Shown: positions 48,001 to 51,000 of the stretch, one piece after another | Position numbering within the stretch: position 1 is the stretch's first letter | Layout: each line of letters starts with the position of its first letter | Source: Cristatella mucedo | Lineage: Eukaryota; Bryozoa; Phylactolaemata; Cristatellidae | Reading direction: 5' to 3' | Length of the DNA: 64,000 nucleotides | Assembly: GCA_009760855.2 (NCBI GenBank) | Contig: WPIO01000033.1 | Location: 1,402,501-1,466,500 of the forward strand | Made by a program: the position numbers and the translations under genes | The notes under the pieces: generated by a model | The model's input: the letters and a program-made list of their open reading frames with translations, nothing else | Database searches by the model: none | What the model was told of the DNA's origin: nothing

Positions 48001-51000
48001 TTGTACTATTACCCCAAGGACGGACGGAAGGCAGGTTTTAATGGGGCATTTCGGTGCGGACGAGTGCTATCAAGATTCTGTCTGGGTCAACTATCCAACC
48101 AGCGCCGCAATGAGGAAGAAAGAAGTGTACAGAACGAGAAGTATATCTATTAGATCCAGCATGACAATACGATTCAGTAATGGAATTCTATGCGGCTCCA
48201 CAGTAGCAGAATCCTTCTCTCCTGGTTTTTCTATCTCAAACGAAAGGCAAGACACTTATTTTGCCACATGCCACGAATTTAGCAAGACATTTTGTACAAC
48301 TAGCTTTACGGTTACAGTTACTTTTGAAAGTGAAAAAGCAGCTGGCAAACCAGCTTCCTGCTAAGCCATATGTGATGTCGAACCAACTTTACAGGATCTC
48401 GCAGCAATCCATATTCACTGGAAGTATGGCTTCAACAAGCATCAAATCAGAAGTCGTCAAATCCAGGACTGCAATCGCCATACGTAGGTAAGTACTTGCT
48501 CCTTATCCAGCCAGCTCCTTCTACTTGTGCATAGATGTACAGCCCACTTCCTACTAAAGCAAGCCTCCTGTCTCCCTGCTTTTGCAAGTTAATAGCGGGT
48601 GTGTGCTACAATACCAGCAACATGACCAGCAACAATTACACCGACTGCGCTGACCTGGTATAGGGTGTTATCGTTTACAAAAGCTTGCCGTACTCAGGCA
48701 GTGTGATAAAAGTTGTTTGATAGAATTCTAGAAATGCAACATCAGTAATCTGTATAAAGTCAGGGTGGTAAGGGGTTTCTGGTGGTCCTGCCCACATCAG
48801 TCGGACAATTGTTTGGCAGACTGACGTATGGTGGCCAAAAGGAAAGTTATTAAATTGGTAGTCATTGTCGCTTCGGTCAGATTTCTCTGACTGAAGCTTC
48901 AGCCCATGGAAATATCACTGTAGTTTAATTTTATTTAGCTTTGCCCAAGACCTGTGACCATAGAAGCTTAAGGCCCTCTTAACTGATGAACCCATTTCCA
49001 TTGAGCAAGGAAGTCCGAGGCTGTAAGTTTTGTGTTAATAAGCAGGGATTCGAGCCTCAATACCTCAAAATGTGCAGAGCACTTGCTCAGAAAACCTTAG
49101 GTTGTAGGATCTTCCCATACAAACCAAAATTTCTTCTCTCCCGACGGCTGACAGCCATTGGTCGTTCTGTATTTAACACTAAACCAAAATGCAGCCAAAA
49201 ATTGGCCGGATGTATATAGAAAAAACTCACGCAAGGAATGTCGTGGCTATGTGACCAGCTACGATAAAAACGCAGTTGAATCACAGATGCCCGATCCAAA
49301 AATCTTTACGTCTACTACTATCTCCTAAACTGCTCCTAGGTGACCTAACCTTAGCTAGCGATCCCTGTGGTAATCTAGCATTACACTTCTCTAGTGTCTT
49401 TGAGAGCAAGATAGATAACATCAGAGGTTCATTCCTAACATAATATCTCCACTGGACTCATCTCCTTTAGTAACATCCACCATTCGACTCCTCTCCCTCA
49501 ATTCCCAGCAGCATCTCAATGTCCACCCTCAAACCAGCCACTAGTGAGCAGCGTCTCGAATTTCATTTACGAGACTAAGAAGCCTATAAGCTCTTTAGAC
49601 CCAATACTCACTGTTCTTCTTCTAAGATATATCGACTTGCTGCTGTTTCACATAACTAACATCATAAATAAGTCCTTGGTATCTGGTCTTGCCCCTGCAT
49701 CTTCCAAAATGACTGCTGTCAGACCAAGTCACTAGGGCAAAAATAGACCAAGAAAGCAACATCCTCCCAGTATCCCTTCTGCCGTTCGTATTAAAGAACA
49801 TGGAATGAGTAGTATCAGACCAGCTGAACAGTTATATCAAACCTTCGTAACTTGCGAGTAAGTTCCACACAGGTCTTAGAGCTAATCACTCCGTGGAGTC
49901 AGCAATGCCGTGGCTGAATAACGACCTCAGAAAAGCAGACTTAGGTTGAGTCTCTCTGCTAGCTTTGCTGCATATTTTGATAGCGTTTAATGTTATTGAT
50001 CATCGCATACTTCTCGAGCACCTCTCATTTCGCGTGATCATCACTGACATTGTACTACAACGGTTTAGGTCCTATCTCAATAGGAGACCAGAGTATCGAT
50101 GTTAACAGGCAACAGTCTTAAAATAAACCTCTTGAGTAGGGGTAAACCAAGGAGCTGTACTTGGTCCATTTTTTCATAATGTATACTATCCTTCAGGCCT
50201 ATATTATTGCCTAGAACAGCAGTACTCAACCTGTGGGTCGTGACCCCTTTGGGGGTCGAACGACCCTTTCACATGGGTCGCCTAAGACAATCGGAAAACA
50301 CGTATTTCCACATTTTGCACACAATAATTCTATGGTTGGGGGTCACCACAACATGAGGAACTGTATGAAAGGGTCGAGGCATTAGGAAGGTTAAGAACCG
50401 CTGGCCTAGAACAATCACTGATTTCATTTTTGTGTGGATGACAGCTGCACCTATGCTTAGATCCTACTCTACCGTCAAGTACGTCAAACTCTCAACTCTA
50501 TTGCTTTACGTATTGCTGGTAGTCGCACTTGAAGGACAAGAAACTTTCTCAAATTGAATGACAACAAAAACCAACTTGCTAGTTATGGGCAAACCTAGTA
50601 TGTATGACTCAGAAATTGAAAAACCTATCTCTCAAAATGGGCTCCACCAGCATATATCCTGAAGGATCTGCATACAATCTGGGTGTCTAGTTCAAAAGTG
50701 ACCTTCCCCTTCATGCCGACATATACTCCAGTCAGGCCTTCCAACTTTCACCTACAACTTTGCTAAAAATTCTGGCCTGCTGAGACAGGGATACCACATC
50801 TAAGTTGGTCTGTAAATGTGCGACCTATCTCTCGACTTCTGTAACTCGCTACTTGCAGGTCTTCCAGGCAATGCAACAAGTTGCTTTCAGTTGGTGCAAA
50901 ACTGCAGCTGGGCTTGTCTGTCGTGAACATTGCAGTTGCGAAATTACACCACTTCTCAGGACCTGCACTGGCTCCCCATCAAGCAGCTTATCGACTTCAA

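Follow-up and report, generated by a model that had tools for sequence, protein, structure and literature searches.

A SPIN-like hAT MITE inserted in an older LINE of an invertebrate genome

The locus and its nested insertion

On the plus strand, C2 and kinase matches extend over approximately 1-31 kb of the window (the whole stretch of DNA that was analyzed, 64,000 nucleotides in length) and appear to belong to a protein kinase C-like gene, a name that is our own reading. ORFs with BAH and with TNRC18 SH3/BAHCC1 Tudor matches are found on the minus strand (Table 1). The MITE described in this report is located upstream of these ORFs, which sit on the 3' side, and candidate upstream exons near 57.8-58.5 and 61.6-62.1 kb, identified by our own reading of the ORFs, would bracket it. 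An earlier note on this DNA had placed the element in the intron of an invertebrate gene. The minus-strand gene domains 3' to the MITE bear this out in part, but the candidate exon ORFs near 58 and 62 kb gave no match in Pfam. The MITE is probably inside an intron of a BAHCC1/TNRC18-like gene, with the bracketing exons being putative.

Table 1. Positions of the MITE, its target site, the LINE copies and the neighboring gene domains in the window
Feature	Coordinates	Strand	Remarks
BAH match in ORF	36621-36881	-	Pfam
TNRC18 SH3/BAHCC1 Tudor matches in ORFs	39989-41326	-	domain matches
Paralogous LINE copy without MITE (natural empty site)	27864..28866	+	alignment and reverse-transcriptase match
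Older decayed LINE fragment, split by the MITE	49851..51031	+	two-piece alignment to LINE copy 27864-28866
Target-site duplication, left copy GCCTAGAA, central TA	50209..50216	.	8/8 exact to 50404-50411
SPIN-like hAT MITE, 187 bp, non-coding	50217..50403	+	6.4% from family consensus
Left terminal inverted repeat CAGCAGTACTCAACCT	50217..50232	+	13/16 versus opposite end
Right terminal inverted repeat, minus-strand reading CAGCGGTTCTTAACCT	50388..50403	-	13/16 versus left end
Target-site duplication, right copy GCCTAGAA	50404..50411	.	8/8 exact to 50209-50216

The earlier note had described a 187-bp element with imperfect 16-bp terminal inverted repeats and identical 8-bp flanks, and this anatomy was confirmed: the flanks agree at all 8 positions and the terminal inverted repeats at 13/16, a value that rises to 15/16 in the consensus of the family to which the element belongs. 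Short terminal inverted repeats of about 15 bp are, like 8-bp target duplications, features of the hAT superfamily. The element has no coding capacity, the longest stop-free run being 55 aa. The element interrupts a LINE fragment, as is seen from a comparison with another copy of this LINE elsewhere in the window. This other copy is 71.0% identical to positions 49851-50218 and 71.8% identical to positions 50404-51031, with the break in the alignment located at the MITE; when the MITE and one duplication are removed, the LINE-to-LINE alignment runs uninterrupted across the site. An ORF in the empty-site copy (27875-28348) matches the reverse transcriptase family PF00078 with an E value of 4.8e-13. 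Since the LINE copies are only 71-72% alike, versus a divergence of 6.4% between the MITE and its consensus, the LINE is older than the MITE. Thus, the order of events that the earlier note proposed, LINE first and MITE later, is upheld by both the split alignment and the paralogous empty site.

Other repeats were observed in the window. Just downstream of the LINE, a segment of about 780 bp (51405-52183) is 67% identical to its own reverse complement and is read as either a fold-back element or a large palindrome that has decayed. SINE-like dispersed repeats, approximately 77-94% alike, are found at 6734-6904, 13921-14111 and 29901-30076, with further copies at 61411-61579, 32080-32203 and 5919-6049; they look tRNA-like by eye, and ARAGORN detects no tRNA. 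A second dispersed repeat family, approximately 77-90% alike, is represented at 27597-27853, 29046-29345 and 13672-13844, with further copies at 37012-37190, 38895-39183 and 53094-53233.

Copy number, target sites and age of the family

Matches to the MITE in the host genome were 89-100% identical at 40 scored places, including the window copy; these places are the best of 2,183 first-look candidates, and the 39 others were taken with their flanks. A 23-nt core of the left arm was searched in the host assembly with up to 2 mismatches allowed. This search found 1,045 matches (523 + 522), and the reversed control found 0. A sample of twenty 10-kb stretches, all on one contig, contained one full MITE copy. 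One copy per 200 kb agrees with a family of at least about a thousand members, being too few to fix the number. The family is short, non-coding, high in copy number and homogeneous at its ends, and is in these respects a MITE family.

The target duplications of the 40 best-matching copies were scored with fixed boundaries. All 8 positions agree in 12/40 copies and at least 7 of 8 in 27/40, whereas none of 400 shifted flank pairs used as a control reached 7/8. Together with the exact duplication of the window copy, this substantiates the earlier reading of a hAT-type MITE with an intact 8-bp duplication. A central TA was present in the left flank of 32 of the 40 copies, compared with 25 of 400 control positions. 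The target consensus of Buster-type hAT elements is nnnTAnnn, and the central-TA target of this family fits that rule. In a second set of 40 copies, picked by pattern, the duplications are more decayed, with 8/8 agreement in 7/40 even when the boundaries were allowed to slide; 32 of these 40 copies are full-length by the rule that we applied.

The consensus of the 40 best-matching copies is identical at 187/187 positions to the majority sequence of 36 pattern-picked copies, all with the 23-nt core unaltered, joined by the single copy from the 200-kb sample; the 23 core positions are fixed by selection of the sequences in these 36 copies. In the best-matching set, which is biased toward the window copy, the mean raw divergence from the consensus is 5.6% (39 copies, window copy excluded) and the mean pairwise divergence is 10.4% (40 copies). 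The pairwise value is approximately twice the divergence from the consensus, which is in keeping with a single source sequence for most copies. The window copy, at 6.4%, falls within the range of 3.2-8.6% shown by the 39 other best-matching copies. Four of the 40 pattern-picked copies (L091, L096, L100 and L110) were left out of the divergence count for that set. The remaining 36 have a median non-CpG distance of 0.10 from the consensus (range 0.037-0.344; core excluded), in a selection in which the exact-core requirement also favors younger copies. A median distance of 10% from their own consensus at non-CpG positions suggests that the MITE family is fairly young.

Some copies have a different internal structure. 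At one pattern-picked locus (L096; C44:6460522-6460774) the left arm is followed for 93 bp, after which the interior is different, and the left arm and the new interior together form a perfect 17-bp inverted repeat. The match to the MITE also breaks off inside the element in L091 and L100, which are at most candidates for longer copies. The L096-type interior was found at 16 places in the genome with 78-100% identity, all 16 first-look candidates having been scored; almost all of the 134-nt query is matched at 13 of these places and only a part of it at the other 3. A SPIN-like left core lies beside this interior at 2/16 places, L096 and C331, and in C331 the core is 37 nt from the interior, the same distance as in L096. 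The sequence read at the longer-type places comprises the interior, with the left end at these 2 of the 16. The longer-type places are possibly longer parents of the MITE, and on sequence grounds the pattern would fit a scarce parent with an abundant MITE. At C277:456500-459805, a longer-type interior is bracketed by two left-arm cores that point in opposite directions and are separated by 3.3 kb.

The host genome

The host assembly comprises 572 Mb, and its GC content is approximately 46% across 264 kb. A search with COX1 led to a mitochondrial contig of 21,008 bp (C688). The COX1 reading frame of this contig has in-frame stops under the vertebrate code and is open under codes 4, 5, 9, 13 and 14; in our judgement code 5 is the appropriate choice, given the amino acids that conserved positions then show (AGR read as Ser, ATA as Met and AAA as Lys). 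By our own reading of the ORFs and tRNAs, the genes nad1-nad6-cob-nad4L-nad4-nad5 are found on one strand, and cox2 and nad2 are, again by our own reading, opposite to cox1. The order nad1-nad6-cob-nad4L-nad4-nad5 is described as the lophotrochozoan ground pattern (PMC5162086). The mitochondrial gene order of this invertebrate host is, by our reading, lophotrochozoan-like. The mitochondrial contig also has exact repeats of about 1.8-2.1 kb in which the nad3 region is duplicated (L052-L054); these are either a real duplication or an effect of the assembly.

On the nuclear contig C166, a MITE copy is accompanied by a stretch that is 96-97% identical to the host mitochondrial DNA. Since both are present on this contig, the MITE family belongs to the invertebrate host. 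The invertebrate nature of the host, claimed in the earlier note, is thus supported twice, by the breakdown of COX1 under the vertebrate code and by the contig that links the MITE to non-vertebrate mitochondrial DNA. A different contig, 618 kb long, has close to its start a 1.4-kb stretch (L050; C83:1621-5235) that shares 74.6% identity with the mitochondrial DNA of the host and is either an old NUMT or a sequence from another mitochondrial lineage.

Probable relationship to SPIN/URR1 and proposed origin of the family

Few instances of DNA transposons moving between animal phyla are as clear as that of SPIN, which has reportedly been found also in the snail Lymnaea stagnalis. Three strings of 25, 27 and 30 nt, which we take to be vertebrate SPIN/URR1 sequence, have 0, 0 and 1 mismatches, respectively, to the family consensus, and the same presumed strings have 1, 1 and 0 mismatches to the window copy; they were written down before the consensus existed, but with the window copy in view. 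A 225-nt sequence that we assume to be the URR1/SPIN consensus agrees with the MITE consensus at 78/80 positions in the left arm and 84/84 in the right arm, a comparison weaker than that with the short strings because the 225-nt sequence was written down after the MITE consensus had been seen. The central part of the MITE, about 23 bp, has no counterpart in what is presumably the URR1 interior. Exact SPIN patterns had no match in the viral contig and genome contig collections, blastn with the MITE consensus found no match among plasmids and phages, and no SPIN sequence strings were found in the text of open-licence papers. That the element is a hAT/Buster-type MITE in an invertebrate is well supported. 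It likely belongs to the SPIN/URR1 group, an assignment based on presumed SPIN/URR1 sequence rather than on a database consensus.

The explanation that we favor, and which we regard as quite probable when taken as a whole, is that the MITE would be a copy of a SPIN/URR1-kind hAT transposon that is non-autonomous and was mobilized in trans. A longer relative would supply a Buster-type hAT transposase that binds the shared ends, as we infer from the hAT superfamily. This transposase would excise the MITE elsewhere and join it to a central-TA target, giving rise to the 8-bp duplication GCCTAGAA; the target would in this instance have been the LINE fragment, which was old by then and probably intronic in the BAHCC1/TNRC18-like gene. 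One dominant sequence would have produced the roughly one thousand copies, with the longer-type interior present in only 16 places. The ancestor would most likely have entered the host lineage via horizontal transfer, given that the arms are nearly perfect matches to what we take to be the vertebrate consensus. Horizontal transfer into the host lineage would thus be likely, if the SPIN label is right. We give about even chances to a more specific proposal, namely an independent horizontal invasion by SPIN of an invertebrate lineage that is new to the record and may belong to neither Mollusca nor Insecta, in which a few longer elements gave rise to a MITE subfamily of its own with about a thousand copies.

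The ends of hAT elements share a general CAG...CTG form, and a hAT/Buster MITE that arose within this lineage might resemble SPIN only through such convergent ends. We consider this improbable: convergence would not yield agreement at 78/80 and 84/84 positions over long arms, on the presumed SPIN sequence, nor would it account for only 0, 0 and 1 mismatches in the 25, 27 and 30 bases of the earlier, likewise presumed, strings. Near-identity of the arms also makes it very unlikely that SPIN reached this host by vertical descent from an ancestor early in animal evolution, a reading in favor of which nothing was found, since non-coding arms would not stay near-identical for more than 500 million years; the median non-CpG distance of 10% between the pattern-picked copies and their own consensus likewise points to a fairly young family rather than an ancient one.

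SPIN is best known from tetrapods (PMC4054807, PMC11614815), which would be in keeping with vertebrate DNA contaminating the assembly. To this we attach practically no weight, because the 1,045 left-arm matches include 100 listed ones that are distributed across many contigs, the LINE that bears the MITE occurs a second time on its contig, and a MITE copy shares contig C166 with a 96-97% copy of non-vertebrate mitochondrial DNA. Contamination, which the earlier note had named as one of the outcomes that would undo its reading, was not borne out, and was rejected for the family as a whole on the strength of the C166 linkage and the core matches on many contigs. The MITE might instead have a present role for the host in the BAHCC1/TNRC18-like gene, as an enhancer, in splicing or as a source of small RNA. 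Its intronic position is probable, and SPIN-derived piRNAs are reported in Rhodnius (PMC11614815), but the divergence of the window copy (6.4%) is within the 3.2-8.6% of the 39 others and bears no mark of constraint, so that such a role seems highly doubtful.

Returning to the favored reading of a SPIN/URR1-kind MITE, if the label is true then another invertebrate lineage would be counted among the probable recipients of horizontal transfer. A fairly young SPIN-like family in one more invertebrate would help to reveal which animals carry SPIN between vertebrates, and when.

The SPIN non-autonomous elements and rodent URR1 are like the present MITE in their 8-bp duplications, their terminal inverted repeats and their high-copy short elements, and presumably also in their arms (78/80 and 84/84), as compared with a presumed consensus. 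The present MITE differs from them in its length of 187 bp, in a distinct central segment of about 23 bp and in its invertebrate host. The portions of the open-licence literature that were searched revealed no invertebrate SPIN hosts beyond the assassin bug Rhodnius and the freshwater snail Biomphalaria; among vertebrates, 385 SPIN elements are given for a turtle (PMC4054807). SPIN in Rhodnius prolixus is described as highly identical to vertebrate copies, and Rhodnius SPIN_NA is, as here, a non-autonomous SPIN in an invertebrate (PMC11614815). Rhodnius is an insect, whereas the present host has, by our own reading, a lophotrochozoan-like mitochondrial gene order, and the two are likened by description and not by sequence. 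A SPIN-like hAT of Biomphalaria glabrata, a lophotrochozoan, is described as numbering about 1,000 copies (PMC5440852); this hAT with SPIN identity is similar in copy number to the present family, the likeness again being one of description rather than of sequence.
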